From the NCBI GenBank assembly GCA_036924285.1, contig JAYKYS010000009.1, positions 5,456,001 to 5,520,000 on the forward strand: a stretch of 64,000 nt of DNA. Direction: 5' to 3'. Of the stretch, positions 11,464 through 54,300 are shown piece after piece. Both the position numbers and the translations under genes were made by a program. Within the stretch, counting starts at the first letter, position 1. Each line of letters starts with the position of its first letter. This DNA is from Asterella californica. Its lineage: Eukaryota > Streptophyta > Marchantiopsida > Marchantiales > Aytoniaceae. Under the pieces are notes generated by a model. That model was not told the origin of the DNA and did no database searches. It saw only the letters and a program-made list of their open reading frames with translations.

Positions 11464-11467
11464 CCGT

Positions 11468-15168: not shown

Positions 15169-15171
15169 AGC

Positions 15172-28164: not shown

Positions 28165-30083
28165 ATAGAAGCTTACACGATGGGCTTTTATTTTGCAAGA
28201 GTATGCTTTTCAAGTCGTACTTAGATTGGTGAATCGTGATGTATATTGTTTGCGTCAAAAACTATATACGAATCAGCGAGATGCGACAAGAGTTCATTGG
28301 CATGATGAGACATATGAAGAGGTTGTGCCGTGGTGGCATACCTCTATCATTTTGAGTATGTTGGCTTTGGATGGTCATGTTATATCTCTCTCAAGTCAGA
28401 GAGAAGATGATGAGTCCTCAGACCCTGAAGGTGGGGATGATGTAAGGACCAACGAGATATTCACAAGGATGTGATGGTTATGAGATTCTCCGTACTGACA
28501 TAATGGTTGGCATAGTAAGTGCTAATGAGCGAGATCGTGCCCTCCAACAAACCAAGAGGTTCCATCATGAAAGAAGACACGTAGTTAAGATGGAGAGGAT
28601 GGAAGAGTGCATGTGGAACCACACCACCGCAAAGAGCATAATTAGTGCAGCATGTCCATGAGGAGTTGAAGCATTTTGGAGTGAAACATACATATAACTT
28701 ATCCAAAGGATAATATTGATGGTGCGATATGCATACTAATGTGCAGCAGTTTGTTGAACGATGTATAGTTTGTGATCAAGTAAGAGAATCATTCAATGCT
28801 CCTATTCCACAACTACACCCCTTATCTATTATGGAGTTGAATTATCGTTGGTGTTTGGATTTTGTGAGACCTTTATCGTTGACTGTACGTCATCATCAAT
28901 ATGTATTAGTGATGATCGAACACTTACGACACGAATTTCAAGTGGATTGAGTTGGCAGGTTACCAGACAAGATGAGTGAAATGACAATGTATGCATTCCT
29001 CAATTGAGTGCTCAATCGTTTTGGTGCTCCAGCCGAAGTGCTTATTGATCAAGGTACAGTGTTTCTTGAGGAGTTTCAAGTCTAATATGAGTTAATGGTC
29101 CATCCGATGACAATGTGCGTGAGGTGTTAATCTTCTAGGGTCCTCATGTTAGAAGGCCGTGATGATGTTGTTTGAAAAGATCATGTGCATAACTGTGTGC
29201 AATGTCATCTTTCAAACGTCGATGATACAATGGATCTAAGCTTAGCAATAGTATGAGTTGGCTTGAGATGCATGTTATGGGATCTGCTAGTGAAACAACT
29301 AGCATACTATTGTGTGATGATTGTTCGAGAAGATGGCACATGTCATGTTTGACACCATCTCTCGATGTAGTTCCTCCAATACGATAGATGTGTCCACGGT
29401 GTATACAGCGGGGTGACCGATTTGACGTTCACGTGATATGGATTGTAGATATGCGACTAACAATGAGACGACATAGCATCCGTGCTCTTGATCTTTGCAC
29501 CCACGAAGATGCATATCACGTAGTTGAGATATATGACTATATGGAGTTAGAGGGACCTAACCGTCAACTAGAGAGACGATTGCAATACACTTGTGTATGT
29601 GTATGACATCGTATGTATGTTATGTTTATGTGTCATTTGGTCGGACAAGGATGTATGTTGTGTAGCGATGTGTATGCACACGATAACTATCACACCACGT
29701 AGCGGCTCTACTAGTTAGTAAAGTGCGTGGTAACTAGTCTTGTTAAGATCATTAAGGCTGTTAAGAGATATGTTTGGTTCAGATCCTTTTGAGAAGTATA
29801 GTGCGAGGTAAGAGCTTGTAGACCTCACTTCTTTCGAGTTGAGTCTTCAAGCTCTTGGCTATGATAGATGAGTTGAGTGAGGATAACCTTGATTCTCTGA
29901 TGCGTAGAGTGGGGTTGGCTTGACTAGAGTGATCTTTGTGTTGCTGGTTGGCATTTTAGTACGGATGAATAGAAAATTATTGCGGTACACTAGTGTATAT
30001 GTACGATGTCGTATATATGTTCTATTTATGTGTTGTTTGATTAGACAATGATGTATGTTATGTAGCGATGTGTATGCGCACGT
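28165..30083 (+). pseudogene. Remnant C of a DNMT-type Ty3 element: RNase H end, integrase, PHD tail, LTR-like end
   Basis: Collinear with the 3' half of the long DNMT element. 28193-28474 (LQEYAFQVVLR, RVHWHDETYEEVVPWWH) matches its RNase H-integrase linker (LQEYDFQVVHR, RWHDEVDEEIVPGWH). 28729-28950 (MHTNVQQFVERCIVCDQVR, NYRWCLDFVRPL) matches its integrase zinc region and first Asp. From 29.25 kb the PHD part shows CDDCSRRWHMSC and CPRC, and 29388-29606 continues to YTCVCV. Then follow the GT-rich unit (29582-29683), an LTR-like head (from about 29688, TATCACACCACG for TGTCACG) and a second unit ending near 30083. The gag-to-RT part is absent. Heavily mutated. Confidence 0.75.
29582..30083 (+). 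repeat. GT-rich unit, LTR-like head, GT-rich unit
   Basis: The about 100-bp unit (ttgtgtatgtgtatg...gtagcgatgtgtatgcaca) occurs at 29582-29683 and 29983-30083, flanking about 300 bp alignable with 5177-5435 and with the end at 48143. This is the same arrangement as remnant A. Confidence 0.7.
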
Positions 30084-33073: not shown

Positions 33074-33181
33074 TGTCGTGCGCATACACATCGCTACACA
33101 ACATACATCGCTGTCAGAGGTACACCACACATACACATAACACATGGACGATGTCATACACATACACAAGTGTATCACAAT
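33074..33181 (-). repeat. GT-rich unit at the 3' end of the DNMT element
   Basis: About 105 bp, reading on the minus strand tacacttgtgtatgtgtatg to gcgatgtgtatgcgcacgaca. The same unit is at 5071-5172, 19860-19962, 29582-29683 and 29983-30083. Confidence 0.85.
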
Positions 33182-33229: not shown

Positions 33230-33577
33230 ATCTCAACTACGTGATACACACCTTCATGGGTGCAAGGATCAGGAGGCCGAGTGCTACATCGTCCCATTGT
33301 TAGTCGCATGTCTGCAATCTATACCACACAAAGATCTAATCGGCTATCCCTGCTATATACATCGAGGACAAACCTATCATCCAGTAGGAACGACAATGAG
33401 AGGTGGAGTCAAACATGACATGTGCCAACTTCTCGAATAACCATCACACACCAACATACGAGCTGCTCCAACAGCAGACCCACACAACATACACCTCAAG
33501 CCTGCGCGTACAACTGCTAAGCTTGGGTCAACAGTACCTTCAATGTTGGGAAGATGACATGGCGTGCAATTACGCAC
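33230..33577 (-). pseudogene. PHD finger at the C-terminus of the DNMT element Pol
   Basis: Reads AGLRCMLCGSAVGAARMLV, then CDGYSRSWHMSC, LTPPL, PTG, two adjacent stops, and VCPRCI. The Cys/His order C-x2-C, C-x2-(C), H-x2-C, C-x2-C with CL-x-PPL is that of a PHD finger, a zinc-bound module that in many chromatin proteins reads the histone H3 tail. Here the fourth Cys is Tyr and the W before the last Cys pair is hit by the stops; remnants A and C keep them, so the ancestor had a full finger. It follows the integrase C-terminal part by only a few codons, in another frame. By position it replaces the chromodomain of chromoviruses. Histone binding is inference. Confidence 0.75.
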
Positions 33578-33789: not shown

Positions 33790-34927
33790 TGTCGCGTCCC
33801 TCATTCTCAAGATCGGACGCAGACGCGAACAACAGAACCCTAGCGGACTTGCGCTAGGTTGTGAACGCTGCGAGTAAGACTTAACGGCTTGACCGGGAAG
33901 TCGGGATCAGATGAACCCTAAGTGATTCTCTGAACCAAGGTTGGAACATTGAGCTAGGACCTAAGGGCCTACCCCAAGACGATCCCAGACGAACGCTGAC
34001 CTAAGGGGACAAGTTTGGGAACGGACCGAAACATGAGTCTGAGACATAGGTCTAAGACGCGGGACCGAGACGTGGGTCCGAGACGCAGACGAACCGTGGT
34101 TCGGACGCTGGTCTGAACCACAGGGTTCGAATCTGGGTCTGGACCACATGTTTCTGAAAAATGGTTAAGTGTTGGAGCTCTAGGGACGTTTTAGGTCGTG
34201 GACGGAGCTCCACATAAGATCTCGAGGCGAGTGAGGTATCATTGGAAAGGTCCCGTTGAGAGCTTTCTAGTGATATATAACATTCCTCGATCTGACCTCC
34301 GAGCTAGAAGTTATGGCCGAACCACAATCAGGTTGTGGTATAATTTTCAGGGACCAAAGAGGAGGGCGGGGCCGCCGATCCCCAGAAGTATATATGAGGG
34401 AGGCTCGATGCTTGGGTCGGCCAGGACGAGTCACTCGACCTCAGGGTTCGGCGGGTGGACTCTGGGGGCATGAGGTGATGGCTGGCCGGTTCCAAGACAC
34501 GTTCCGAGCCAGACTTGGACGTCTGGACTTAGGAACAATGTAAGGGCTGGGGCAAGACTAGGGAACGAGTCGGCGGGTTAGACCACCGTTCGGGAGCCTA
34601 GACCCAGACGGACATCACAGGCGGTTGGACCGCTAGGTGTGCTGGAGGCACCGTTTAGGACCCTGGACTTTATGGGAAGTCCGCCCCAAGTCATTTAGTG
34701 ACTTGCTCATGTTTGGGATCGACCTAGACGGACCTCGGTCGGGACTTAGGAACTGCGGAGCTTGATGATTAAGGAGACGGTCCGGCTCCGGTCCGGACCA
34801 AACTGAGTTAAGGTAAGTGGTGCATGGACGCGAACTTGTGATTGTGTTTGCAGGTTAGCGGTGTAAAGTTTGTGACCTACTGAGCAAGTGCTTCCGCTGG
34901 CGCAACAAGGCAGTAGGTGCGCGAAAA
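33790..34927 (+). repeat. 5' LTR of the nested chromovirus
   Basis: Starts TGTCGCGTCCCTC and ends just before the primer site at 34929; the exact end is uncertain by about 15 bp. No 3' partner exists in the window. Confidence 0.65.
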
Positions 34928-34928
34928 G

Positions 34929-34940
34929 TGGTATTAGAGC
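34929..34940 (+). promoter_or_regulatory. Primer binding site (initiator tRNA-Met type)
   Basis: TGGTATTAGAGC differs in one base from TGGTATCAGAGC, the common initiator-Met primer site of plant LTR elements. Confidence 0.75.
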
Positions 34941-35045
34941 TGACGCTTCGGTGAGCGAGAACTTGAGGTAGCGGCTGAAGGCTGGACGCTTGAGGAGGGA
35001 CGCGAGACACGAAGCGGATCAGCGTTTCTAGGTGCACTTGGAGCG

Positions 35046-36092
35046 ATGGCCGACGTCGGACAGAGTTCCAGGAGGAAGACCAAGAAACGAGGAGTGGCGG
35101 CTAACACCGGGATCAGATCGACTCGAGCTAGCCCCGAGGCACAGTCAGGAGACGATAACCGACAACCTTCGTCCCAACGTCAAGGGAGCCCAGTTCCAGT
35201 TGTGGCACCGCTGCAGCAAGATGGAGTCTTGCCAACGGTGCCTAACGATGCAGGCGCGGGAAGTCAAGGAGCCTTGTATGCGGAACTCATCAAAATGATG
35301 AAGACCATGCAGGAAGGTATGGCCTCCAAGGATAAACGTATCGCTGAGCTTGAGGCAAGCCAAGGAAGTTCCTCGTCTACCAAAAAGCTTTGTAAGACGA
35401 ATTTGCCGACTCCGTTTACAAGTATAGGACGGGCTCGCAAGGTTAAGGATTTCTTAACTGAGTTAGACCTATACTTTGAAGCGCATCAGGCTCAGGAGTA
35501 AGACAAAGTGAGAGCGGCGGTTACGTTCCTGAAGGACCATGCGCTTCTCTGGTGGACCGCATACAGGGATGAGCATGCTTTGACCGTCTCGGCGCTTGGT
35601 TGGAAAGAGTTCAAGGAGTTGCTCGCAAGACGATTCACTCCAGAGTATCAAAGGATTCGGGACGGTGTTGAGTTAGTTCGGCTGAAGCAGACAGGGACCT
35701 TAAGCGCTTATGTGCGCGAGTTCAGTGCCAAGCTGGACTCGTTCTCCAAGTGGACTGAGGAGACCAAAATATGTATATTTATCGAGGGACTCAAGTCCAG
35801 CTCGGAGAAGGTTCTCTTTTGGATGCCGGAGCTACCTGCAACAAGTGCCGAACTTTTGAAGTTAGCGGAGCGAATTGGGGACGACGAAGTCCAACAACAG
35901 AAACCCTTTGAACCATGCAGCACAGACAAGTTCCAGAAGAAGAACAAGGGCTTCAAGCGACAATGGGATGGGGGTGAGAAGGATCGGAAGGATTCTTCTG
36001 CCCCGGCAGCAAAGCGGCAGCAAATAGGAGTAAAACCTAAGGGGCAAACACCTCAGAAGGGCAATGGCGCTTACTTGCTACAACTGTGGTGA
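35046..36092 (+). pseudogene. Gag of the nested chromovirus
   Basis: One frame broken by TAA at 35499. It has a disordered N-terminus, then a coiled segment (LIKMMKTMQEGMASKDKRIA) and the gag capsid domain: ALLWWTAYRDE, FKELLARRFTPEYQ, LVRLKQTGTLSAYVREF, MPELPATSAELLKLA. A basic stretch follows. The CCHC knuckle [14 protein letters not shown] is reached only in the next frame (36064 onward), so a shift near 36.07 kb separates capsid and knuckle. Confidence 0.85.
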
Positions 36093-38129
36093 GGCGGGCC
36101 ATATTGCTAAGGGGTGTACGAAACCTAAGGTTAGTAACTGTAGCATGAATGCATTTGTTGCAAAGGACTTGTTGGAGGGCCAGATGACTGTGACCTTGAG
36201 AACCACGAAGAAGACGCCAGGATTGATGTATCTACAAGCCAAGGTTGCTAACCGTGATGTTACTTTTCTTGTGGACACAGGAGCGACTCACTCCTTCATA
36301 AGTCCAAAGTTGGTGAAGAATTTGGGCTTGTCTACCTCCAAGACAGACAAGCCTATTCAGGTACGCTTTGCCAAAGGCAAGACGTACCAAACTTCTAAAG
36401 TGGCTTTGGACGTACGATTTGCGTGTGGGAAGTTGGAGTTCACAGAGAACTTCACGGTGTGCGAGATGGATGATATCCATGCGGGTTTGGAGAACACTTT
36501 CTTGGACAGGTTTGAAGTGGAACTTAGACGGAAACCTTTAAGGTTAAACGTTAGAGTTAAAGGGCGGAAGTTGGGAGTGAGGCTGATCCGAAAGGTGCGG
36601 AAAATTGATGACTTTGCAGTGAATTTGATCAAAGACAAACAGATGGAATTCAACGATGGGGTCATGTGTTTGATGCGGGTTGCAGATTTGATGGCGGGTG
36701 ACAGACAAGAGGAAACATCAGGAGACGCGACTAAACTTCCGGAGGTGCTTCGCAAAGTGATTAAGGAGTTTGAGGATTTCTTGACGGATGAGTTACCTGT
36801 TGAGTTACCTCCAAGGCGGGTGGTGGATCACAAGATCGAGGTCTTGCCAGGATCAGAACCACCTTCCAAAGCCCCTTACCGACTCAATCAGGTGGAACTC
36901 CTTGAGTTGAAAAGACAACTCGGTGAGCTATTAGCGCGGGGATATATTCGAACTAGCAAGTCACCTTATGGAGCCCCAGTTCTGTTTGCAAAGAAGAAAG
37001 ATGAGAAGTTACGACTTTGCGTAGATTATCGTGCACTCAATAAGGTGACGGTGAAGAATAACTATCCCTTGCCAAGGATAGATGACCTCTTTGATAGGTT
37101 AGTGGGTGCGAAGTACTTCAGCAGGATAGACTTGAAGTCAGGATATTACCAGATCCGGATAGCTGACCCAGATGTTGAGAAGACCGCTTGTCGAACCAGA
37201 TACGGATCATTTGAATTCGTGGTGATGCCATTTGGACTCTGCAACGGCCCTTCGACGTTCACTACATTGATGAACACAATTTTTCGCGAGGAGATGGATG
37301 AGTTTGTCATCGTTTACATCGACGACTTCTTGATCTACTCCAAAACCTTGGAGTCGCACGCGGAGCAGCTAAGGGTGGTGTTGACGAAGCTGCGGGAGCA
37401 TAAGCTGTTTGCCAACATTGACAAGAGTGAGTTTGATTTGGAGCGCATTAACTTCTTGGGACATGTCATTAGTGCAGAAGGAGTCGGTCCGGATATGCAG
37501 AAGGTGGACGCGATTGTGACTTGGGAGCCTCCGACTACAGTGAAGGGAATGCGGTGATTCTTAGGATTGGCGCAGTTCTACCGCAAGTATGTGAAGGGGT
37601 TTTCAAAGATCACGAAGCCGTTGACGGACTGGACGGGCAAAGACGCACAGGTAAGTTGGACCAAGGAGATGGATGATGCGTTTCAGACGATCAAAGCTAT
37701 TTTGTCAAAGGTGCCAGTTTTGAGCTGTCAGAGTTCGACAAACCATTCGAGGTGCACACGGACGCGAGCGACTATGCGATTGACGGAGTGTTGGTGCAGG
37801 ATGGAAAACATGTAGCATACGAAAGCAAGAAGTTATCTGGAACGGAGAGTCGATGACCGACTCACGAGAAGGAACTGTTCGCGGTGGTTCATTGCTTGAG
37901 GAAATGGCGACATTACTTGGGACTTCACAAAACCCAAGTGTATACTGATAATATTTCGCTCAAGTACTTTGAAACACAAGATCGGGTGACGCCAAAGCAA
38001 CTACGGTGGCATGATACCTTGGCGCTCATGAACGTGGAATTACTCCACAAAGCGGGAAAGGACAATGTGGTTCTTGACGCCTTGAGTCGCAAGGAGGAAT
38101 ATCTTCCATCGTCAACACAGATTTTGTGA
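36064..38129 (+). pseudogene. Knuckle, protease, reverse transcriptase and RNase H of the nested chromovirus
   Basis: 36064-37557: [14 protein letters not shown] knuckle, retropepsin [13 protein letters not shown] (D-T-G-A), then RT with [40 protein letters not shown] and [13 protein letters not shown] (Y-I-D-D). A TGA at 37555 breaks it before FLGLAQFYRKYVKGF. A frame change near 37.73 kb leads to RNase H: FEVHTDASDYAIDGVLVQ, then a TGA, HEKELFAVVHCLRKWRHYL and VYTDNISLKYF. Family length and order are normal. It would copy RNA into DNA and remove the RNA strand; this copy cannot. Confidence 0.88.
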
Positions 38130-38132
38130 GCT

Positions 38133-39300
38133 ATGTATCCTAAGGAATCAGACTTGGAGAGGCGAATACGTGAAGGTTACATGGGTGATGACCGAGCGAA
38201 GGAATACTTGGAACAACTCAAGCGAGGGGTGAAGTTGCAAAACATGCAGCTAAGACATGGTTTACTCATGTTCAAGCAAAGTCGGGTTTATGTGGGACAA
38301 GGAAAACTTAGGACCAAGTTGTTAAAAGAATCTCACGATGTGCCCTTATCAGGCCATAAAGGAGAAAAGTCCACTTTAGCAATAATCGTTAAAAAGTTTT
38401 ATTGGCCCCACATGAAAGACGATGTTTCCCACTTTGTGAAAACATGCGTAACCTGTCAAGCGAATCGCGTTTCTTATGAGAAGAAACAAGGATTGCTTCA
38501 TCCTTTGCCGATTCCAGCCAGACCTTGGGAAAGCATTAGCATGGACTTCATTACCTCTCTGCCTGACTCGAATGGATACAACGCGATTTTTGTGATAGTT
38601 GAATGGTTTAGCAAACTAGCGAAGTTTGCTCTGACCTTGGACATTGCAACAGCGTTCACGACTTCTCGGTTGTTCCTAGATACTTGGTGGCGTTCACATG
38701 GATTACCTCGGAGTATTATTTCAGATCGAGACTCTAAGTTCACAAGTGCCTTTTGGAAACACATGTTCCAAAAATTGAGGACTAAGTTAAAATTTAGTAC
38801 CGCCTTTCATCCGGAAACAGATGGACAAACAGAACGAGTTAACTCGGTTCTGAATCAATACTTGAGGAATTATGTGAGCGCAGACCAAAGTGATTGGGCG
38901 GAGTGGCTCAGTCTTGCGGAGTATTGCTACAATTCCACGAAGCATTCGGCATTCGGCAACCGGTGAATCGCCTTTCTTGCTGGCTTACGGACGTGAGCCA
39001 GAAGGGCCTCTTGACTTGACTCTTGCAGGGAGTTCTACATCGGCACGACCAAGAACACGGTAAACATCAGCTGAAGAGTTGGTGGCGGCAATGCAGCAGC
39101 ACGAGGAGCAAGTAAAGAACCTCGAGAAGGTGCAGCAAAGATACACGAAGCAGGTAAACAAGCATCGGCGGCAAGTGCAGTTTCAAGTGGGTGAACAAGT
39201 ATGGTTAAGTGCGAAAAACTTCACACTTCCGAAGGATATATCGGCGAAGTTCTCAGCAAAGTTCGCGTGATCTTTTGTCATTGTCAAGAATCCGCATGAA
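38133..39300 (+). pseudogene. Integrase of the nested chromovirus
   Basis: Zinc region HDVPLSGHKGEKST with CVTCQANR (HHCC). Catalytic triad: D in SMDFITSLP, D in IISDRDSKFTS, E in GQTERVNSVLNQYLRNY. The frame breaks near 38.96 kb (after NSTKHSAFG), and two further changes lead through a C-terminal segment QFQVGEQVWLSAKN. In family members this segment precedes the chromodomain. Confidence 0.85.
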
Positions 39301-39336
39301 GATGTCTATACATTAGACCTTCCTCACGAGTGGCAG

Positions 39337-39516
39337 TTGCATCCGACTTTCCATGTTTCTTTATTAAAGAAATACTTCAAGGATGATTTGCGGCCGGAGC
39401 GCAAACAGATTCTCAGGCCTCAACCTGATGTCGTGCAAGGCGAAGCAGAATATGAGGTGGAGTCCATTTTGCGATCTCGACGCAAATCAAACCGGATGGA
39501 GTACTTGGTCAAATGG
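39337..39516 (+). pseudogene. Chromodomain, truncated half-way
   Basis: Reads HPTFHVSLLKKY, then EYEVESILRSRRKS and MEYLVKW, the first two strands of a chromodomain. The W-K-G-Y...W-E half is missing, because the element stops at 39516 and the duplication plus minus-strand integrase follow. Such domains in chromoviruses guide integration to marked chromatin. Confidence 0.85.
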
Positions 39517-39527
39517 CGTGTCTCTAT
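39517..39527 (+). other. 11-bp duplication, right copy
   Basis: CGTGTCTCTAT, identical to 33779-33789. Confidence 0.85.
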
Positions 39528-40368
39528 GCTGAGCAATCGCTAGGTTCTCAAAAGCCATAGACATAACTCTCCGAAATGTCTCTGCTCGTTGAGAACATGC
39601 TCTCACCCACATATCCGGGTCATCAAGGTCCAGCACCTCAGCAGAATCACGACGAATGGCCGAAGGTAGATCTGGATCTCGGCCATACAATAGAAAATAC
39701 GGTGAGAAGGAAGCCAAAGACGCTTGTCGGTTGAAACGGTAACCCATAGCCGACCATGGTAACTGCACATCCCAATCTCCCAAGTGGCCCTTCTGCAGGC
39801 CATACTTGCGCAATCCTCTCTTCACCGTCTGAACTACCCTCTCCGCCAAACCATCCGCCTCAGGATGATCTCGAGATGTAGTCCGATGATCAATCAGCGC
39901 CTGATCACACAAGGCCTGAAACTCACCCAGGAACTCTGTACCTTGGTCGGTCAGCACTTCAGTTGGTGCTCCAAAACGACTTAGCACTCGATCTAAGAAC
40001 GCATACGCTGTCCTTTCACTCGTCTTGTCTGGTAATGCCACCAACTCAATCCACTTGGAGAAGTACTCCACCATCACCAACACATACCGGTGGTGACGTA
40101 CGGTCAACGGTAAGGGTCCCGCAAAATCCAAACTCCAACGGTAACCCAACCCCATAATCGGTAAGGGGTGTAACTGTGGAGTAGGAGCATTAAACGATGC
40201 TCGTACTCGATCACAAACCACACATCGTGCGACAAACTGTTGCACATCGACGTGCATACCACGCCACCAATACTGTCCTTGGAGTAAGCGATGCGTACGC
40301 TTCACTCCAAAATGTCTCAACTCCTCATGGGCACGTCGTACTAACTGTGCCCTCTGGAATGGATCCAT
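39528..40368 (-). pseudogene. Integrase of the DNMT element, N-terminal and catalytic parts
   Basis: Zinc region HEELRHFGVKRTH with CVVCDRV (HHCC). Core: D in RWSLDFAGPLP, D in VLTDQGTEFLGEF, E in DGLAERVVQTVKRGL. Then GYRFNRQASLASFSPYFLLY, typical of Ty3 integrases. The open frame runs 882 bp without a stop up to the insertion of the chromovirus and continues in frame at 33778. With that insert removed the integrase looks intact, which makes it the best preserved gene of the element. It inserts the DNA copy. Confidence 0.9.
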
Positions 40369-41137
40369 ACCCTCCCATCATCCCACACTCGAAGTAATGT
40401 CGTCCTTCTCGTCGAAATCTCTTCGCTCGTTGAAGAACACGATCTCGCTCCTTGGTACTTACTGTGCCTACTATCACATCAGTACGTAGATACTCCATCA
40501 CGATCACATCATCATGGATAACTCGCTGATCTGGAACACCATCTCCACCCTCAGGATTTGGAGACTCATCATCTACTCTCTGACCAGAGAAAGATACGAC
40601 TTGGTCCTCCATACTAGAGTTCATGACCAACACACAAAGAAAGGCAGATGCATGCCACCCTGGCACTATCTCCTCATCAACCTCGTCATGCCAGCGAGCC
40701 CCAGTCTGATCCTGCTGACTCGTGCATGGGTTGCGACTCAACCCATCGGCATCTAGGTTTGCAACTCCAGGTCTATGTACTACCTGGAAGTCATACTCTT
40801 GTAAGATCAGAGCCCATCGTGCAAGCTTCCCTGTAAGCTTATCGGACTCCATCAACCACTTGAGCGGCTGGTGATCAGTGATGAGAGTAAAGGAGTTCTC
40901 AAACATATAACATCGAAAGTGTGCAACAGCCCACACTGCCGTCAAACACTCTCCCTCATACGAACTATACCTCGCCTCCGCTGAATTGTTGGAGCGACTG
41001 GCATACGCCACCACGATCTCCTTTTTCTCATCATCATGTTGAGTCAGCACTGCTCCAAGTCCCAACATACTCCAATCTGTGTGCAGTTGGAAAGGACGCC
41101 CCCTAATGGGTCTCCTCAAGATGGGAGCAGATGTCAA
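40325..41137 (-). pseudogene. RNase H and linker of the DNMT element
   Basis: FQLHTDWSMLGLGAVLTQHD (D start), ARYSSYEGECLTAVWAVAHF (E) and SFTLITDHQPLKWLM (D) give the RNase H core, followed by VVHRPGVANLDADGLSR. Then comes an acidic linker of about 120 residues leading to the integrase zinc region, which starts in an overlapping frame. It is matched by remnant C at 28193. Confidence 0.88.
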
Positions 41138-41299
41138 CCTATCCTTGAGCTCTATGAAAGCTCGCTCCTGCTCATCTCCCCACTGTCACTCTTGGTCCAC
41201 CTTCATCAGCTTGGTCAACGGCTTCGCAATTGCACTAAATCCTCAAGTATCGACGATAAAAGTTCACCAAACCAACAAATGCTCAAACTCGACTCACAT

Positions 41300-42063
41300 C
41301 TGTGGGGCGTGGGATACGTGCAATAGCCTCAACCTTCGTCTGTTGAACACCCAACCCACCTGGATAGATGGTGTGGCCCAGATACTCTACCAACCTCCTG
41401 GAATAACTTACACTTCCCAGGGTGTAACTTCAACCCATGAGCTCTCAACCGCTCAAACACATCCCGTAAGTGTCTCTCGTGCTCCTCCACTGTAGCACTA
41501 TAGACTAAGATGTCGTCAATATAACATCTGACAAAATCCAATCCTGCTAGGATTCTGTCCATCACCCTTTGGAACTCAGCAGGGGCGTTCTTTAACCCAA
41601 ATGGTAAGAACCGCCACTGATACAAACAATCCTTGCCGTGAGAGTCAATTCCTCAGAATGCTGTCTTGGACTTATTTTCTTCTCTCACTGGCAACTGATG
41701 ATACCCTGCTCGAAGATCCAAAGTACTGAAGACCTTCACATGCCCCACTGCATCAAAGATCTCCTCAGGTGTCGGCATGGCATACTTATCGGACTTCGTC
41801 TGCCGATTGATAAGACAATAGTCCCCACACATCCGTCTATCTGTGTAGTTGCCATACATATCTTTCTTGGCTGGCATAACTGTGGCAGATGCATACTCTC
41901 CATGCGACATCTCCACCAACCCAGCCTCCAACAAATCTTGAGTCCGACTCTGGATCAAGGCTCTCTCCATGTCACTGTACTTGTAAGGACGTCGGAAGAT
42001 TGACGTGTCATTAGCCAAGTCGATCCGTATACCAGGTCCCTTCAAGGTACCCAAATCCTTCAT
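41300..42063 (-). pseudogene. Reverse transcriptase of the DNMT element
   Basis: 42063-41650: DLLEAGLVEMSHGEYASATV, the start of RT, then RMCGDYCLINRQT and FSTLDLRAGYHQLPV. After a stop at about 41653 the same frame continues: YQWRFLPFGLKNAPAEFQRV and FVRCYIDDILVYS (Y-I-D-D at about 41512-41523), then LKLHPGKCKLF. A further break near 41330 precedes RNase H. Order and motifs are standard Ty3. The RT begins directly downstream of the methyltransferase, so the latter is an insertion between protease and RT, not an addition at the end. Confidence 0.9.
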
Positions 42064-42231
42064 ACTGAAGGCAAAACAATTCCTGTAGCTCTTCAGGAAT
42101 CTTTGGACTCTTCATCTCTCCTCTTCTATAAGCTTGGGTCCAATCTCCGGCTCCCAAGTATCCTCTGTCACCATGCTAGAGATAGAGGACGAAGTCGTTG
42201 ACTGCTATCTTGCAGCCTCTGGAGCAGTTTC

Positions 42232-43787
42232 CTACCCACCATCAACAACCTCCACCGCTACTGTGCGTAAAACTTCTGCAGTTCTAGCTGCAAGCTCCAC
42301 ACTCTCTCCTATGACATCCCATGATGTCCAAGGATGACGAACTCCACGTGCCTCGCCCCCAGCCTTTGTCTCCACCGACCCGGTAGGCAAAGAACTCAAG
42401 AGTGCTCGAGCAGTAACACTCGTCGATCGCATCCGACGCTGCTCAGCCAATCCAAGGCTAACAATCCATGTCAAGCAATTCAAGTCCATTGCTTGATCCA
42501 ATACTTGACGACGTGAAGCCTCCGACACCGAAGCTACTGCCGTCGTATCCATAGCAAAACCCATTGCTCGCTCTCTCTCATCGGCATTGAGCTCCACCAA
42601 CTACCGTAATTGAGCATCCCATACAAGCCCAGGTCCTCCATCTCTGTAAGCATGTGACGCTGAAAAGCTTACCAAAGTGGGTAACGCTATCATGGGCCGT
42701 TCCACTAGGTTCATCACTGCCATGGGTGACCTATCGACGACTCTCACTACTTGAGATCGTCGTGCTGCATCCAAGATGCTATCAACCGTGAGATGTGCTG
42801 GTCGTCTCACTCCATCGTGTGCTCGCTTAAGCACCTCTCTCGATAACAAGTTCGTCCACCACAACCGTGGACGATGTGCACGAGATCCTACTCTCGCTGC
42901 ATCCAACAACACTGCTGGTCCAATCCAAGACCGCACTTGGTGCACACTCGTCATCATCTGTGTGCGAGCATCACCCAACAAAGGAACGTTCTCCAAGATG
43001 TACGTTGGAGATCCACCTGATGCATCTGGAGATGTCGTAAGATCCGTAACATCTCCCATAACATCCTAGATCGCGGGTCATGTAAACCCTGACCTCTCTC
43101 AGCACGTGTGTGACCTTGACATGGCCATCCGGCTATCACCAAGTGAATGGTGCCCACCAACGTAAGATCCTGCGCCCTCAACAGCGAAATATCCGATGGT
43201 AATGCTTGCTGGTATCCTCTAACAGCTGATATGGACAACAACTCAGGATATCTCTGCATCAAACGTGTCACATGTCGCAATGAGATGCGTCTCGCAATCT
43301 CATCTCTCTCCACATACAAGTATCGCTGTACTTGTATACCTGCCTGCAATACCGCAGCCAAACCTGTGCTGATCCCTCCAAACAGCTCCAGCACACATAC
43401 ACCCTCCTCTGGATACTGCCACACAATGGGAGTCGTATCCAACGGTGATAAGGTCACAAGGCCAGTAGCAGGAACAACTCTTTGTTCCTCTACTGGTGGT
43501 ACAAAGGCTTCACTCCAAGCCTGCTGCACCAACTGATCAGCATATTGCTGCAACTCTCCACTCGAACTCCAGAGTGGAACATCCAAGGCAGATGGTACTA
43601 ACGTAGACATGCTAGGCATGTCCTCCACCTCCTCAAAGATCGGAGTATCCTCCGCATGGGCATTGCCCTCCAACAACTCGCCTGACCAAGTGATGACCGA
43701 ACTGAACCCTGCAACGGATGCCATCGTCCCTGGTGTAGGCTCCGTCATCCCAATTTTAGCACTGAACCGCACTGGTAAGCGGCTCAC
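42232..43787 (-). pseudogene. C5 DNA cytosine methyltransferase carried by the retrotransposon
   Basis: All core C5-methyltransferase motifs appear in canonical order. I: LELFGGISTGLAAVLQAG (about 43394-43340), the AdoMet site. IV: AGWPCQGHTRAERGQG with catalytic Cys at 43119-43121, then DPRSRMLWEMLRIL. VI: ILENVPLLG. VIII: SRAHRPRLWWTNLL. IX/X: ERERAMGFAMDTTA and QAMDLNCLTWIVSLG. The family transfers methyl from AdoMet to C5 of cytosine. The R-x-R-x-W-W-x-N form and length point to the DNMT3-like side, and the motif order is not permuted as in plant DRM. One frameshift (about 43020) and one TAG (42601) break it. It is in the same frame as the protease upstream, with one TGA (about 43836) between, so it was part of Pol. 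An N-terminal acidic region of about 120 residues has no known domain. Confidence 0.88.
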
Positions 43788-43835
43788 TTGTCCCTCACCG
43801 GACTGCCAACCTGGTCTGTAAGATGCTGTCTCCGC

Positions 43836-44219
43836 TCAATAGTCGATCACGAACCCCATAGGGTACAACACAGCACCTCCCATCAATACATCATAAGACT
43901 CTGCGGCTGTAACGATGGCCTTGGTCCTCACCATAGAGCCATCCGTGGGGTGATATGGCCGAACTCTCACCGTCAACATCTCACGTGTCATGTGTAGAGC
44001 CGTACCTCCTGATCCTCCTAGAGATGTCTGCAACTGGAATGGACATCTCTCTATCTCGGACTTCTTCAAACCCAAACCAATACACGCCGCCTTTCTCAAC
44101 ATCAACGATTGGGCTCCAGAGTCTAACAAGACCTTCTGGGGTCGATACACTTTCCCTGAAGGTGCCACCAAACAGAAGATACCACTTCTGTTGTCCAACA
44201 ACACCACACCTGGTGCCAA
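43836..44219 (-). pseudogene. Retropepsin of the DNMT element
   Basis: QKVLLDSGAQSLMLRKAA has the D-S-G-A active triplet, and AESYDVLMGGAVLYPMG is the C-terminal signature (family Y-D-V/L-L-x-G). The frame ends at TGA but continues directly with AETASYRPGWQSGEG into the methyltransferase, so protease and methyltransferase were one polyprotein. It would cut Gag and Pol apart, presumably also releasing the methyltransferase. Confidence 0.88.
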
Positions 44220-44262: not shown

Positions 44263-46173
44263 CTAGCAAGCGGGGTCTAACCTAGCAGTCGTCGCTTGCC
44301 AAGTACCACTGGTAGCTGTCCTGATCCTCGACTCCATGGACACGTCTACCGCCTCTCGCTGAACTACTTCAGCACTAGAGGTAACTACATCCTCTCTCTC
44401 ACTGAGCATGGCCGCCAACTGGAACACTGGAGCCAGGTTGACTCCCAATGTTCTCATATCCGTGGTTGAGAATAGTGGGGCTCGCAAAACTGCTGTAGCC
44501 GCTCCCAACATCGGATTCGACGTCGCATCCAGAGACGTCGAAGGTGGACTCACATCACACCCACTCTTGGACGTCGATGCTTCCAACTCTACTGCACCAT
44601 CGGTAGGCCGTTTAGGAATCATAGATGTGGTCCTCAACGCCTCCGATAACGTGAACGACTGGGGAAGCCTGGTCTGTCTACCAGCCTCCCCGCGTTGTGG
44701 ATCCAACTCCAGTGACGCACCTCGTGGCTCAGAGGCACGTACTGCATCTCTAGTCACTGCCGCAGATGTCTCAATCTGCGCCACACCAGTCATGAAGTCG
44801 AAGTCACCTCCTTCTCCTCCATAAGATGTGGAAGCCTCTGTTCCACCTGATCTCCGCTGAGTCATAGTCATACTAGCTATCCTCTGCTCCAACTGCTCAA
44901 TCCGAGCAGCCATACTTGCTTCTGACGTCGTAGCAGGCGGTGGATTGACCGGTCCTCTCTCGGGTGATGGACCTCTACCTCCAGCTCGACCACCACGGCC
45001 TCCTTGAGCTCCTCCGCCTCGTCCACGATCAACCTTCCCTTTCTGCAACTCGGGATGGAGATCAAAACAACGGTCACTACTGTGATCAGGTCGTCCGCAA
45101 TGCTCGCATTGCCTAGGTACTGCTTGAAACGTCTCTGACGTCCCTGATGTCTCATAACCTCTCCTCTGTGGACAGTCCTTCTGCTGATGAGGACCATCAC
45201 ACGTCCAACAAGGACCCGCTTGCTGCTGACTAGAGAAGGATGGCATGGGCTTCTGTCCACCAGATCCTCCAACACCTCCCTGAGATCGTGACTGCTCCGC
45301 TCGATCCTTACCACCACCACCACCACCACCACCACCAGGCTGTTGCGTAGCCTGTGATCCTCGAGAAGAGGTGGTCGCTCCATGTGGTGTCTCCTTGCTG
45401 AACCCAGCAACCACCACCCTCTCCTCCATCATGTTGAGCTCAATCCGCTCAGCCAGACTAAAGACAATCACCAACGTCGGAGCGGTATCTCTAAGGAGAG
45501 TAGCATCTCTAACTCTCCTACGCAGCTCCCGGTCTAGTATCCCATACCAGAACTGGATTGCATGTGCTTCCGTCACCCCTTGGGTAACGCTGATCAACCG
45601 CCTCATGCGAGTAAACGCCTCGCGTAAGCTCTCTCCAGTCTTCCGCTGGAACTCCTGCAGACTCCTCAACTTGTCGGTCCGCACACCCTGATAGTTCTTC
45701 CTCAAACATTGGAAGAACTGAACCACAGGGTTAAACCCTGGTGGTATCCCGCTCATACTACCACCCGCTCCACTACTTGTGGATGCACCGCTGGTAGTAG
45801 GTACTCCGCCACCTGTGGATGTACCACTGCTACTGGCACCCGAACTTGCAGGTGCTACGCCTCCTGAAACTGCGCCAGTAGTGATAGAAATGTAGTTGGG
45901 AGACCAATGTTATCTCCACAACTCGATCTCAACACTATAATCTCGCCTGAACTCATGATAATCGTCCATCGGCGGTCCCTCCAAGTGTTGGAACAAACCC
46001 TTCCACGCCATGAAGGGTGTAAACAGTTGTGGGTTCCGCATCTGCTGCAGATCGCACCAACTGTCGAACTCCTGGATGAATTCATCCAGCTCAATGGTAC
46101 CAACTGTACCCGAGTAACGTCGAGGCCCCTTCATGGCTCCTTCGTGGCCCCATAGATCTCGTCCATGTTCCAC
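44263..46173 (-). pseudogene. Gag of the DNMT element, with two zinc knuckles
   Basis: 46173-45910 (MEHGRDLWGHEG, ELDEFIQEFDSWCD, FTPFMAWKGLFQHLEG) and, after a shift, 45756-44263 (VVQFFQCLRKNYQ, LREAFTRMRRLISVTQ, AIQFWYGILDRELRRRV) give the capsid domain. A poly-Gly run coded by a GGT repeat (about 45314-45346) precedes two knuckles: CWTCDGPHQQKDC (C-x2-C-x3-H-x4-C) and CEHCGRPDHSSDRC (standard CCHC). The rest is long, Gly/Ser/Thr-rich and without a known domain. Gag forms the particle and packages RNA. Confidence 0.8.
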
Positions 46174-46779
46174 AACAACGGTGTGGCGACACTAGACTCA
46201 TCACCAGAAAACGTGCTGTCTGCCTCTGACTCGTCCTCTGGAACAACCGACGGCAATGGTGTAGATAGTCGGTACCTCACCCCACTCCGTGTATACCCAC
46301 TGTCCAAGAAGTCCCCACCAGAACCTCCCGAGAACTCCGTGATGAGAGAATCCCGCTAACACACTCCCCAACCGGAATGTCGCAATCTCCGTCACCACCG
46401 TAACCACCACTTGCCTAACCCTGCTCCTACTGAGCTCACCTATCCCCTACTAGGACGGTCAAGGTAAGGGCAACCTGTACCTGTCATCACCACAGGCAGC
46501 CTCTCACGGTCTGTTGGTCGTCACTCCAACCGCACCGTGAGAGAGACAAAAATAGTCTGATTGGTCCGCAACTCCAGCCTCATTACCGACAGCACACTGG
46601 AGTGAACTCACTCCGGAAATCAAGCGCCAACACAAGCAAACGCGGCGCACAAACAGGAAGCAGAATATGGAGGGGTTCCAACAACAAGAAGTCCAAACGA
46701 TAACTCTCCACACTCAAACATTCACATAAAGAGAAATCCAGCCCCATCCGGACTGACGTCTCCTCGTCGGTGACCTCAT

Positions 46780-46799
46780 GCACAATATATGGTCACCAA
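46780..46799 (-). promoter_or_regulatory. Probable primer binding site of the DNMT element
   Basis: One or two nt after the LTR-like end (CAGTTACGACA), the minus strand reads TTGGTGACCATATATTG. The TGG start fits a tRNA CCA end. It differs from the E1/E2 and initiator-Met sites, and the tRNA is unknown. Confidence 0.45.
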
Positions 46800-46800
46800 C

Positions 46801-48143
46801 TGTCGTAACTGACACTTGAGGTCACTAACTAGGTGTCTACACCTCTAGTAGCTCCAAAAACACCCACGTGGTAGCTCTACTAGCTCACCCAAGACAACTG
46901 CCACCAACTGCCTCCATACGCGTCTCTACGGTATAGGCAAACACTACCACAACTATAGCTTACCCCTAATATTGTGAGGTTGCCCTACCACTCCTCTAGG
47001 GACGTGCGAGAAGGTCTCCTACTACCTTATACAAGTCCATAAGTACTTGCACGCATCCCTGTAGGACACCAAGAGCTATTGGTATAGTGATAAAGCCAAA
47101 GCTAAGACTACAGAGTTAGGAGTCCAGGTCCAGAAATAGTGTTGGGATGGGTGACCAGCTGGTTTTACCCTTCCCATACAACTGAAGCTTGGATACCTCT
47201 CTCACGCACGCCAGCAAGCTGGCTTGCGGCGGGCTCGAGCTCAGGCTCAGGCTCAGCTCCGCTCCGCCTCCGCACTCTCGCACTCCGCTCTCACGCACAT
47301 CTGCTCCTCCGAACACCACCACAACAGATTCGCGAATGCACAAGACACACTTCGCGAATGCGCACACACACAACAAAACTCCTAAACTTGAGTTTCCACA
47401 CGAAATTGCACCAAAATCTGACGTAACTAGCCTTTTTGCACGGCAGCGAACTTTGACATGCCATAACTTCTTCAATCCTTGGCCAAACTCCACGAAACTT
47501 AGTGCACTAGAATCGTCTCTCAAATGCGCTTCCAAAGAGCCCACTCCGGCCTGACATTGACAAGTACTCCGTCTGCCACGCCCAAATGTGCAGTCCAGCT
47601 CCAACAACACACTTCAAGAACATTCCGCAAAATTTCTGCAGCGCTTCCGCATGACAGAAATCTCCACTCGACCCCAACAACAGCAAATCGATCTGCGACC
47701 AGCAATGTAGCATGCGCCCACACACCTCGATCACAGCTTCACACAATCAAGCACGAACGACAACGTCCGAAGATACCAGCGGACGATTTCAGATTTCAGA
47801 TCAGCGAGCTCTTACTGAACTCCGCCTTGACCTGCACTCAGTTCTTCGAGTAATCTGCATTGAGAAATTACCATCTCCAACACTACAACAAAGATTACTC
47901 ACAAACGGTCAAGCCAAACCCACTCTAAACGCGAAGAGAATCCGGGTTACAATCAACTAGACTATCCACCATAGCCTGGAGCTTGAAGGCTCAACTCGAA
48001 GAACTAAGGCCTCCAAGCCCTACCTGCGAAGTATACCCCTAGTGGGCTCTCTCACCAACTCGTCCTAACGGCACTAACGGCCTTACTAGGATGCGCCACT
48101 TCGCACTCAGTCAACCTAGCGGAGGTACCAAACTGGCGTGACA
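46801..48143 (-). repeat. 5' LTR-like terminus of the DNMT element
   Basis: Starts TGTCACGCCAGTTTGG at 48143 and probably ends CAGTTACGACA at 46801, 1343 bp. The first 250 bp match remnants A and C. No second copy is found at the 3' end. ORFs of up to 164 codons inside it look accidental. Confidence 0.65.
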
Positions 48144-49860: not shown

Positions 49861-51326
49861 TACGGCCAAGCAGTGGACCCAACACTTGATACTCTTTAGT
49901 GGAGAAAATCAAGTACTTTAAAGAAAGATGTGCATGAAAGAACTCTAAAGAAAGACGTGGAGATATCTTTTTTTCTATACTAATTAAACAATAACCTCGT
50001 AATATAATTCACAAAATATATATACCTGTACTCGTTATATATCCCACGAATAATATTCTCCTGGCTATATTGCACGACAACAGAATACTGCACTACCAGA
50101 AATTGTCCCCTTCTGTCTCGCTTGTCTTCTTCCTTCCCTCCGATAGAAAGCTCATTTGTGGCATGCATATTATTGGGCTGATGGAGGTTTATTAACATTT
50201 ATTTTTCTTCTGTTTGCGATATGCAATAATCGGAATGGCCAAGAACAGAGGTGAGAAAGTCACCGAAAGCCTACCACGTGACCGTGATTGGAACCAGGGA
50301 AGGGGAGAACGCAATGAGGGCTGTACTATACAGGGAGCTGAAAGGGAATATTAATAATTATTGATATTGACGATAATGGAGAACCTACTGATTCGGTTAC
50401 ATGCCCTGGAACGCCCTGCCCTGCTTGTTACTTACGCGAAATCACCCAAAAAAATTCCTTTACCGGAATGGCCGTCGACTTTTACGGCGTAACTTTGACG
50501 CACCCTACTTACCGGTTGCGAGCATTCGTCCTGTCTATCTGAGCTGCAAGGAAGGAATAGGAGGCAGGGGGACGGGAGGCCAGGGCAGCAGGAAGGCGGA
50601 AGGCAAGGCAACGAAAGCAGCAGGCAGCAGCTCTGCGCTCTCTGTGGGCTCTGTGTCTGATTGAAGCGCACAGCCTGAAGTTGGGAAGAGTGAGAGGAAG
50701 GGTGGTGACAGGAGACGAAACGAGGGGAGAAAGAGTAGAGCAAAGGAAGGAAGGGGAGAAAGTGGCAGTGGGGGTTTTGCAGAGATCGCTCACTGGTCTT
50801 GTCCCAGGTTGAGGGTGGGTGGAGAAGGCTCGCGGGACTGTATGTGCGTAGAAACGGGGAGTCAATGGAGAATTTGCGGATGATGGGGGAGGTTTGCATG
50901 CCATTGATTCACGTGTGAACATCTTCTAGGTAGGAAAGTGAAGTGAGGTAGAGGTGGAGTGTTCGTTTGAATGGAGGAGTGAGAGCGATAGGGAGAGCTA
51001 GGAGAGTCAGGAAGCGTGGTGGTTACCACAGGGAGAGATTGAGCAGGAGACGGAAGAGGAGGCGGCAGAGGGAGTCATCCATTTTGGAGCAAGCATACGG
51101 AGAGAGTCGAACAGGAGGAATTTCGACACACGAAGAAGTTGGCACGGGGATTTTCTCTAGGGAATCAATTAGGTCGAGGATTTTGTTGGATACTGTGTTG
51201 GCACCCTCTCTGCGCATCCGTCCCCTCTCCCCTCACGGAAGTAGGAAGAGGGGAGGGGGGGAGGTGACCCTTCCTGGGCATTAAGAATCGCGGGCTGTTT
51301 GTTCTGATTTTTCTGAGTATCAGAGG
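49861..51326. other. Intergenic region and 5' part of the BTB gene
   Basis: AT-rich to about 50.4 kb, then GC-rich and purine-rich up to the BTB start codon at 51327. The latter part probably includes promoter and leader. No separate gene is supported. Confidence 0.5.
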
Positions 51327-54300
51327 ATGAAAGCTGCGTTACCTCAACCGATGGTGGAGGGCAAGCAACCCCAAGCGTCCACCTCCGTCGAAGCAAGCAC
51401 AGCTCTCTGCGAACATGTTCAAAGACAGGGATTGGATAATCACCTCTTTTCAGACATTACTCTTTCTTTCTGTGGCAAAGATCATCAGCTCCATCGAATT
51501 ATCCTATCGCAGAGCTCTTACTTCCATTCCCTTTTGTCCGGCCCGTGGAAAGAGCACGGCAAGTCGCGGATTGAACTTCAAATCGATGACCCCAATGTTA
51601 CTCCTGAAGGTTTAGAGATCGCATTCGCATACATGTATGGTATGAGCCCTGTTTTCACTCCGGACAACGTGATATCGGTTCTGGCTGCGGGATGCTTTCT
51701 ATGTCTCGAAAATCTGTGCGAAAAGGGTGTCCAGTTTATCGTCGAGGATTTGAAAGTGGAAACATTTGTTGGATATCAACAACTCTCTGAAAGGCATTGC
51801 TACGGTAGATTCGCAGATGCTATTCGTAACGCTTGCTGGACTTTCCTGTGTACCCACGCATCAAAGGAGCTACTACATCTTCTGCCCAAGTTCTCTCTGC
51901 AGGTTATCCTCTTACCGTACTACCTTATCTTAGATTTTCTCTGCTTGAATTCTGACATGTAATCAAAATGCTTGTTGTGATCATGGAAATTTGCAGGAAG
52001 TAGAATGGTCTTTGTAGACTTTACTTATCACCCGACGCCGCTCCCATTTTTCTGATGAGACTGTCAAAGCGTTTGTCTTGAAGATGTCAGAGCCTGCGTA
52101 GCTTAGGCCGGTCATGAAGCTTCGTCAGTCTGTAAAATCATGGTATATGCGCATGTGTCAGATTCGTCGTCTCAGTATGACATGCTACAGTAACTTGCAG
52201 ACCTGGCCAGATTCGAACATTGCTGTTACTGAAGGTTACTCTACATATGGATGTGATGGAATGTCGTTGTCGAAGATCAAATTTCTGTCCTTCACACGTC
52301 AGTCTCAAGTCAATTCCAAGTTTACCAACCCTAAAACAAAGCCCATTCCGATATGGTTGCAAAACTCATCGACTCAGTCTGCACACTGTATGACCTGGTC
52401 CGAAAGCGATTCAGACTTAGTGACTTACCCCGCGGTTCATCCTGTATGTCTAGCCAACCATCTTGTCAGTGGGTTCAACATATTTGTAAGTACCTCCCGT
52501 TTTTCCTTCGTTCAGGTGCTGTGTCTCCTACTCAAGTCGGATGAGCTATGGGTTCCAAGTGAATCCGAACGGTACAAACTTGCAAAGCAAGCATTGATTG
52601 AGTGGAAGCTTGCACGTGTAAAAGCGACGAATGTTACTCCAGACTGTACAAATACAAGGAAGCCTCGAACGAAGCCTTCTTCTGCCAGAAAGTCCGCCAG
52701 GAACTCAAGTTCCGCTCCCGGCACACGATCCAAAAACTCTCTGCAGAAAACTACTCGACTTAGTGTGAAAGAAAGAGGAACGAAAAAGAAGGAGACAACA
52801 GCTCCAGTTGTGGAGCCAGTAGAACCGGTTAGTCCACCGAAGGTGGAAGTTGTTGAGACCGACTTGAGGAGGTTACAGAGGCTATGGGAAGCAGATGATC
52901 CGATGGACAGAAACAAAGAAGATACGTTCCAAAAGGTGGCAGAACTTTTCACAGACGGCGGGATAATTTTTGCTCACATGGAGGCGGATGAGGTTCTTCA
53001 AGCAAAGAAAGAGTTGGAGGATGCTGGCTTGCCTACGGATGCTGCTGATGATAGTATATGGCAGCTTGTTCTTCTCAAATCTCGTGTGCTTAAGGTACTT
53101 CGTTGTTCGATTTAAATGCTGGTTCACACATATTGTTGCCTCTTGTAATCTTTTTCGCTGTCCATGTGTACGGTAGTCGTTTTCAGATATTTTTTCTCTT
53201 GATCTCTGCGTGTGTAGCCGAGGTGTAGTTTGATTAATAGTCTCCTCTTCGTTGAGGTTCTTCTTATATGGTTTCCGGTCATTTTAGTCCCATTCCAGCA
53301 GGCGCCGAAACGTATAAGGTAAAGGTAGCAAAAAGACTTTGCCTAATGCATTGGATGGCTTCCTGCAACCAGTGAAGGAGCATGATGAGCTTACTTGATT
53401 CACACTCCTGCTTGGCACTGCACCCCCCATATCTCCCTGCAAGCCAATGAAGGCTCTGTTCCCTCTCTCCCAGTTGACTATCAGTAATCCTTGATGATCC
53501 CCGTGCTGTCTTTATATTATCGATTGCAACGAAATCTGAGGGTATGCGTTCCGGTTGCGGTGAGGGTAAGGTCTGATAGCTACCTTCAGTCTGATCGCAG
53601 TTTAAAAGCGCGTCCATTAAATTAATTACATTTCGTAACTTACTGCGTGGGATGGAAAAAAACTTCTTTTCTGCGGTGGTCGGTGAACAACGACGCAAGG
53701 ACTGAGCCAGAGCCTTGTCTTGAGAACTTTTTAGAGCATGAGCCTATGACAAGTGCCAGGATCACGTTACAGTGTCAATTCCTTGGGGGGTGCCACGGGT
53801 TGTCTTCAAGATGGAGGAGAAGCTTTTGTTTTTCTACTTGCTGCGGTATAAGGTTACAGAATAAGCCAGCAAGAAGTTCATCCATCAAGAGCCTTCAAAC
53901 TAAGATCGTGTTTTGGCAGTTTCGGGATACGCACAATCTGCTCGATGAATCGTCTGAGGACGAGGACGACGAAGAGATGGATGATGACGAGGACGACGAT
54001 GATGACGACGATGAGGTGAGGGGCCCAACTTTGCTGATAGATGTCGTGTATCTGCACAGTCTCAGTGTTCGCTGCCCATAAGGTCTTCCACCTTTGTCGT
54101 TACGGAAAGTAGGAATACTAATATCGGCTGTGGATAAGGGACAAGAGCCAAGAGTCGTTTTCCTCTACTTACGCCCTTGAACTTCCTGTTATTTTACGTT
54201 TAACCAATGAGCAGGCCGATGATGAAGATGATGACGAGGCCAGCGATCGTGACTCATCTGACTCAGATGGATGGAGCACTGATCGAAGCTCACAAGAAGC

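Follow-up and report, generated by a model that had tools for sequence, protein, structure and literature searches.

A decayed Gypsy-type retrotransposon with a DNMT3-type cytosine methyltransferase in Asterella californica, and its family

We analysed a 64,000-nucleotide stretch of the Asterella californica genome (Marchantiales; Aytoniaceae; GCA_036924285.1, contig JAYKYS010000009.1, positions 5,456,001 to 5,520,000), hereafter the window, which contains a decayed copy of a Gypsy-type retrotransposon bearing a DNMT3-type C5-cytosine methyltransferase domain (MT). A sequence-only reading had drawn attention to 42232..43787; the feature described there is real, and the element that contains it is far larger. 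Alignment to copies elsewhere in the host genome places the element at 48143-33074 on the minus strand, the limits of its parts being partly projected from an open host-genome copy, L031. It stops at 39517 and continues at 33789, with a foreign insertion (33790-39516) in between, and both outer ends are flanked by CATC, a 4-bp target site duplication (TSD). The left terminal repeat A1 (47851-48143; 294 bp in L031) starts with TGTCACG, is 92.9% identical to the A repeat of a host-genome copy, and is followed by a 5' untranslated leader aligned to the open copies (46167-47850), the first Met of the first open reading frame (ORF1) being at 46166-46164. Next come a broken Gag core with two CCHC knuckles (45067-46166; mapped from L031, the knuckles read in translations) and an aspartic protease (PR; 43734-44213, also mapped from L031) with DSGAQ at 44123-44109. 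Pfam matches to these two parts in the window are weak (PF03732 for Gag and PF13975 for PR, each with E 0.026 and below its cut-off), and relatives add support for PR through PF13650 in P0222, P0225 and P0227 and PF13975 also in P0225. The broken MT (42445-43409) is followed by UAG-CAG-UCA (42199-42207), which closes the Gag-PR-MT frame with its UAG at 42207-42205. Beyond it lie the reverse transcriptase (RT; 41367-41844, YIDD at 41523-41512; PF00078, 7.6e-22 on ORF 41329-41652), RNase H (40793-41182; PF17917, 6.8e-35; PF17919, 2.4e-31) and an integrase (INT; 39517-40377) with an H2C2 zinc finger and a DDE-type core (rve) (PF17921, 5e-16; PF00665, 1.6e-15), the right part of which is cut off by the nested insertion. 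A PHD finger at the Pol C-terminus (33359-33493), located by mapping and translation, is degenerate in the window (PF00628, 6.7e-11 in L031 ORF2), and the 108-bp terminal repeat B (33074-33181), ending ACGACA beside the same TSD, is 95.4-99.1% identical to the B repeats of copies c1, c3 and c4. The window thus holds a single complete insertion that has decayed and lacks A2 and one B; recombination between B1 and B2 would most simply account for the loss.

The methyltransferase motifs lie between PR and RT in canonical order, as had been proposed, on the minus strand: I (LELFGGISTG, 43391-43362), IV (WPCQG, 43127-43113), VI (ENV, 42993-42985), VIII (AHRPR, 42879-42865) and X (42498-42481), numbered in the usual scheme. 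The earlier statement that the domain shares the protease frame apart from one TGA had to be abandoned: there is a one-base frame change near 43010 and, besides the TGA, there are further stops, with motifs I-IV in ORF 43835-42954 and motifs VI-X in ORFs 43065-42601 and 42600-42232. The half containing motifs I-IV matches PF00145 (DNA_methylase) at 22.7 bits against a curated cut-off of 22 (E 7.6e-5), and the two ORFs carrying motifs VI to X have no methylase match by themselves in Pfam. Together with the protein homologues described below and with DNMT3A as best PDB match (E 1.4e-4), this places the methyltransferase signal above chance. The unrearranged motif order is that of the DNMT3 family, and among the matches listed the domain is nearest to DNMT3, not DNMT2, by profile and by fold alignment (VIA-align). 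Identity to DNMT3A/DNMT3B is ~25% over the aligned fold and, unlike these enzymes, L031 ORF1 has no ADD or PWWP match at E<=0.01.

In the host genome (516.7 Mb, 773 contigs) a first look for the MT half gave 4759 candidates. Of these, 134 became scored matches, with identities of 88-100%, and 42 of the 134 lie in uninterrupted frames of 1363-1397 aa. Protein searches returned 122 MT homologues at E<=1e-3 (best 2.6e-99); a 14-row profile gave 214 relatives at E<=0.01, and a search among longer proteins gave 52 at E<=1. Organism names were taken from 120 listed of the 122 homologues and 120 listed of the 214 profile matches; among these the named sources are the liverworts Marchantia polymorpha and Calypogeia fissa, the mosses Sphagnum tenellum, S. 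troendelagicum, S. balticum, S. jensenii and S. fallax, the alga Closterium sp. NIES-53, and one bacterial metagenome-assembled genome (MAG). The PR-MT order recurs in Marchantia and environmental proteins, and MT occurs with RT or integrase in Marchantia, Sphagnum fallax and Closterium. The family is large and recently active, with many recent open copies. The MAG record, P0245, is a MT-bearing retrotransposon polyprotein deposited under a Minisyncoccia bacterium, probably through a binning error with eukaryotic DNA. Two scans of viral contigs (queries P0019 and P0080) gave no MT relatives. Phage C5-methyltransferases were set aside: 100 records matched, of which the 20 listed show 25-32% identity over 43-53% of the query, and the three used in the tree described below lie outside the element clade.

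Five host-genome copies (L031-L035) were taken at 9-10 kb. Three of them (L031-L033) have a 1370-aa ORF1, one in-frame stop and a 1041-aa ORF2, and the other two are broken. One of the latter, L034 (C62), lies inside a different repeat, with which parts of window 11465-15792 share 93-96% identity. ORF1 has the order Gag, CCHC knuckles, PR and MT, and ORF2, by Pfam in L031, RT, RNase H, H2C2 finger, DDE-type integrase and PHD finger; in L031 ORF1 PF00145 alone reaches E<=0.01, PF13975 having no match at that threshold, and Gag and PR were read from motifs and relatives. The genome search for intact frames joining protease, methyltransferase and reverse transcriptase accordingly gave a divided answer: the uninterrupted PR-MT frames exist and RT follows in the same frame, but with a fixed UAG between them. 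MT therefore belongs to the Gag-PR ORF, as its C-terminal part, and the earlier placement inside Pol is rejected for the open copies. UAG-CAG-UCA separates the ORFs in 31/31 distinct copies including that in the window (L001-L030 and L035, the copies for which this stretch was in hand), and P0121, at 61% identity, ends its ORF at the homologous residue. The nonamer fits UAG_CAR_YYA, the consensus given in PMC3542737 for type-I readthrough in tobamoviruses and further plant viruses; by simple letter odds, CARYYA would follow a given UAG by chance once in 512. We infer from this context that the UAG is read through, and MT, lying before it and beside Gag, may be made at Gag-like levels, with abundance and packaging as the predictions. 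The 65 codons before the UAG (L031:6038-6232) carry 2 synonymous against 27 nonsynonymous variants and one stop in 31 copies; this stretch differs from MT, PR and RT in that respect, possibly reflecting constraint on RNA or on another frame.

The termini are those of no plain long terminal repeat (LTR) element. Self-comparison of four extended copies gave the layout A1 (294 bp), coding region, B1 (108 bp), GC, A2 and B2 in all four, with homology between copies ending at the start of A1 and the end of B2. Among 19 further copies, 17 have B-GC-A-B at the 3' end, one has B alone and one neither; of the 14 readable cases, 13 have the same leader after A1 and one has other sequence there, and in none does B follow. 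Duplications of 4 bp flank 4/4 extended copies and 14 of the 15 further copies with both ends in the fetched stretch, hence, among 23 examined, 18 of the 19 in which both ends could be read, and in addition the window copy. A1 and A2 are 98.6-100% identical in the four extended copies and 99.0-100% in 14 full-length comparisons, so that many insertions are young. A longer 5' LTR running to ~L031:1676 was considered and rejected, the 3' end having no repeat of it. The ends TGTCA...ACGACA with their 4-bp duplications agree with the TG...CA ends and 4-6 bp duplications of Ty3/Gypsy elements (Metaviridae), as does the order of RT, RNase H and DDE-type integrase with an H2C2 finger in L031 ORF2 (Pfam); the two like LTRs of that class are absent, A1 standing alone on the left and B1-GC-A2-B2 on the right. 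These observations indicate a DIRS-like repeat layout with integrase-type insertion, and we file the element as a Gypsy-type pol with DIRS-like ends. Split direct repeats (A1, coding region, B1-A2-B2) are common to it and to DIRS/PAT elements. DIRS elements are not known to make target duplications, in contrast to those found here, and, also unlike DIRS, the element has a DDE-type integrase, with no tyrosine recombinase (PF00589) in either L031 ORF at E<=0.01. The DIRS repeat layout is described in the passages of PMC5890265 on such elements.

The precedents named in the sequence-only reading, retrotransposon methyltransferases of Klebsormidium and dinoflagellates, are real. The closest is KnitGypsy-Dnmt3 of Klebsormidium nitens, a Gypsy element carrying DNMT3 in a divergent intronless clade, its repeats arranged as in DIRS according to the Fig. 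4 legend (de Mendoza et al., 2018; PMC5890265). As described there, it shares with the present element the Gypsy-type domains, an unrearranged Dnmt3-type MT, DIRS-like repeats and evidence of purifying selection, but its MT is described in the Pol polyprotein ORF, whereas here it ends a Gag-PR-MT frame before a readthrough-type UAG; this comparison is by description, not by sequence, and no Klebsormidium sequence is named among the matches listed in the protein searches. SymbioDIRS-Dnmt3 and SymbioLINE-Dnmt of dinoflagellates are likewise retrotransposons with a C5-methyltransferase, the former a DIRS element with a tyrosine recombinase and the latter a LINE, unlike the Gypsy-type element here; the text on these cases sees no relationship to the Gypsy case, and reports two coexisting domain orders in SymbioDIRS, (PMC5890265), as MT position varies among the elements compared here. 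Troyka elements were considered and set aside, the portions of their description available giving 3-bp TSDs and CG...CG ends and making no mention of a methyltransferase, a PHD finger or Marchantia. Chromoviruses resemble the element in joining a Gypsy pol to a chromatin reader at the integrase C-terminus, a chromodomain instead of a PHD finger, and differ from it in having ordinary LTRs and in not being known to carry an MT. The kind of element was thus already published in 2018, and the bryophyte family is a variant of that kind. Within the literature searched, at the level of abstract openings, no bryophyte element of this build is named, nor does one appear in passages of PMC6453930, PMC9033089 and PMC6338049, and the main text of PMC5890265 uses none of the terms PHD, readthrough and target site. 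Within these bounds it is new that MT elements have spread and been recently active in bryophyte-type genomes, that a Gag-PR-MT frame closes at a stop of the type-I readthrough kind, that Pol carries a PHD finger, that DIRS-like ends are inserted in the manner of an integrase, and that MT has changed place within one clade.

In the methyltransferase tree the 22 element MTs tested form one clade (bootstrap 100, SH-aLRT 99.9), apart from one host DNMT3-like gene, two host DRM-like genes and three phage methyltransferases, a set of outgroups with few cellular DNMT3s and with the host genes named by motif order only. The host's own DNMT3-like genes, and its DRM-like genes with rearranged motifs, include L083, L084, L085, L086 and L087, two of which are near-identical and ~30 kb apart on C526. 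MT position varies within the clade: type I elements have it between PR and RT, type II elements between RNase H and integrase, and in P0252 it precedes RT. Type II is found in related PHD-bearing Gypsy-type polyproteins (for example P0231 and P0237, within P0231-P0248), and RT, MT and INT occur in that order in 13 proteins. The bryophyte elements (100/100) and type II (97/99) form separate clades in the RT tree, and the MT tree likewise has type II as one clade (99) and the bryophyte set as another (100), with P0227, P0250 and P0252 placed poorly or differently in the two. We read these topologies as suggesting a single capture of DNMT3 and a later move within the polyprotein; a second capture from a near donor is possible given the few cellular DNMT3s in the tree.

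Comparison between species indicates conservation of MT almost at the level of RT and above that of PR. Against Marchantia P0202 identity is 79% in MT, 69% in Gag, 65% in PR and 51-59% in the linkers; against P0208 it is 75% in both MT and RT-RNase H; and against the distant P0227 and P0237 it is 47% and 42% in MT and 53% and 46% in RT-RNase H. Between the window copy and L031 the ratio of nonsynonymous to synonymous rates (dN/dS) is 0.36 for Gag, 0.32 for PR plus linker, 0.43 for MT, 0.23 for RT-RNase H and 0.45 for INT-PHD. C-to-T changes between these two copies amount to 6.2% at CG, 4.9% at CHG and 4.1% at CHH sites, with A/T transitions at 1.8%, and over 30 pooled loci, including the window's own stretch, to 1.7, 1.4 and 1.0%, respectively. 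Such a pattern is compatible with methylation by whichever enzyme, and host methylation would give the same.

DNA methylation is a main host tool against transposons, which makes an element that keeps its own methyltransferase a paradox. The account we lean towards takes the window element for a decayed member of a Gypsy-type family; in ancient times this family would have acquired a DNMT3-type enzyme, which it has kept under selection and which would be packaged as Gag-PR-MT and methylate the element's own cDNA. Ribosomes would mostly stop at the UAG and yield abundant Gag-PR-MT, with occasional readthrough adding the RT-INT-PHD extension. MT would be packed into particles together with Gag, its position upstream of the UAG making travel in the particle more plausible, not less, than the place inside Pol from which such travel had been argued. 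It would then methylate new double-stranded cDNA, in the particle or in the nucleus, before or as integrase joins the cDNA to the genome, and an insertion born methylated might not be treated as foreign unmethylated DNA. The PHD finger, whose best PDB matches include MLL3, CHD4, KDM5B, BHC80 (PHF21A) and AIRE, could hold integrase at chromatin marked by a particular histone H3 tail state, a role also ascribed to the chromodomain of chromoviruses. Self-methylation of new copies is at present a plausible hypothesis. Dinoflagellate retrotransposon MTs carried out de novo CG methylation in yeast in the experiments reported in PMC5890265.

Several results weigh against this account. The Klebsormidium element MT had no activity in yeast, a result called inconclusive in the same report (PMC5890265). 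Within the host genome selection on MT is looser than on PR plus linker or the start of RT: dN/dS, whose calculation had been suggested for the MT part, is indeed below 1, but pooled over all pairs of 31 host copies it is 0.38 for MT against 0.21 for PR plus linker and 0.13 for the start of RT, and in 16 open-frame copies, for which two regions only were compared, it is 0.40 for MT against 0.11 for PR plus linker; the copies were picked by MT similarity, a biased sample, and the set of 31 includes broken ones. Against the Sphagnum fallax gene model P0226, a model without parts of MT, identity is 51% in MT, 79% in RT-RNase H (121 aa) and 80% in INT (132 aa). The CpG observed/expected ratio of an open copy is 0.75, compared with 0.69 and 0.79 in two other parts of the window, so that CpG is not depleted in it relative to them. 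As to the stop, the 11th codon after the UAG is ATG, making internal initiation possible, and some environmental lineages have no stop at this position (P0227).

Among the alternatives, the idea that a host gene or a piece of one fell by chance into a single dead element has next to no probability left: a dead chimera would be expected to be broken, and the window copy is, but the host genome has the 134 scored matches with their 42 uninterrupted frames, the linkage of MT to PR, RT or integrase extends to Marchantia, environmental proteins, Sphagnum fallax and Closterium, and the DNMT3-like and DRM-like genes of the host fall outside the clade of element MTs. An occurrence in this copy only, which the sequence-only reading had named as the mark of a chance insertion, is thus not what we found, and the methyltransferase is supported as a component of an element family. 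That bryophyte and Klebsormidium elements captured DNMT3 independently we regard as fairly unlikely. It would fit the lack of Klebsormidium sequences among the named matches listed and the description of the Klebsormidium MT in a Pol ORF (PMC5890265), unlike the open copies here; both elements are nevertheless Gypsy-type in the accounts available, with an unrearranged divergent DNMT3-type MT and DIRS-like repeats, and the 22 element MTs tested, from three positions, form one clade.

Other alternatives concern what the enzyme does. It might act in trans, methylating the host genome or rival elements and so blunting silencing signals or competitors. DNMT3-type enzymes are de novo methylases, and an MT encoded in the Gag ORF may be abundant and partly free, but the Klebsormidium host methylome looked land-plant-like in the text of PMC5890265, and we consider action in trans distinctly unlikely. 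We give a similarly low standing to self-limitation, in which MT would quiet the element's own new copies by methylation and thereby lessen harm to the host and prolong coexistence. Methylation usually silences plant elements, and the discussion in PMC5890265 proposes this as one option; many near-identical insertions do not fit a strongly self-limited element. Less probable again is a role on RNA, or a structural nucleic-acid-binding role in the particle, and not on DNA. MT does share a Gag polyprotein with CCHC knuckles, and motif IV letters are altered in several other element MTs (for example WECQD or PECKD), but the commonest forms retain WPCQG (32/61 rows), ENV (42/61) and AHRPR, AHRLR or AHRAR (43/61), and fold and profile are those of DNMT3, not DNMT2.

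The account of packaged MT and cDNA methylation could be widened into a more tentative one, which we think possible but, as a whole, less likely than not. There would be a green-plant-wide hybrid lineage with Gypsy pol and INT, DIRS-like ends and a PHD finger, founded on one ancient DNMT3 capture. Its MT, made in Gag stoichiometry upstream of a leaky UAG, would let copies integrate already methylated in chromatin chosen by the PHD finger, and would later have moved between the PR-RT and RNase H-INT boundaries without being lost. B1-GC-A2 would be a template joining the element ends, in which case the substrate of integrase would be a joined-end or circle-derived form. How a Gypsy-type integrase works on DIRS-like ends is by itself an unusual replication problem. 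The known cases of MT-bearing retrotransposons come from one alga and from dinoflagellates. With a large and recently active family in a bryophyte-like genome, and relatives of it in Marchantia, the question can be put to experiment in a land plant amenable to genetics, and an MT before a readthrough-type stop predicts both the amount and the destination of the enzyme.

The insertion that interrupts the element in the window (33790-39516, plus strand; limits being the edges of the interruption, not of its own LTRs) is a nested Gypsy element with Gag, PR, RT, integrase and partial chromodomain matches, hence a chromovirus; no MT was seen in those of its ORFs that were scanned. Two further relics of the MT family lie in the window on the plus strand: an older relative at 28368-30082 (~75% identity), with B repeats at 29586-29683 and 29979-30082, and a 3' fragment at 4708-5384 (~88% identity) comprising B1 and part of A2. 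A BTB/POZ-domain gene fragment at 51285-51962 on the plus strand (E 3.4e-11) is likely to be a host gene.
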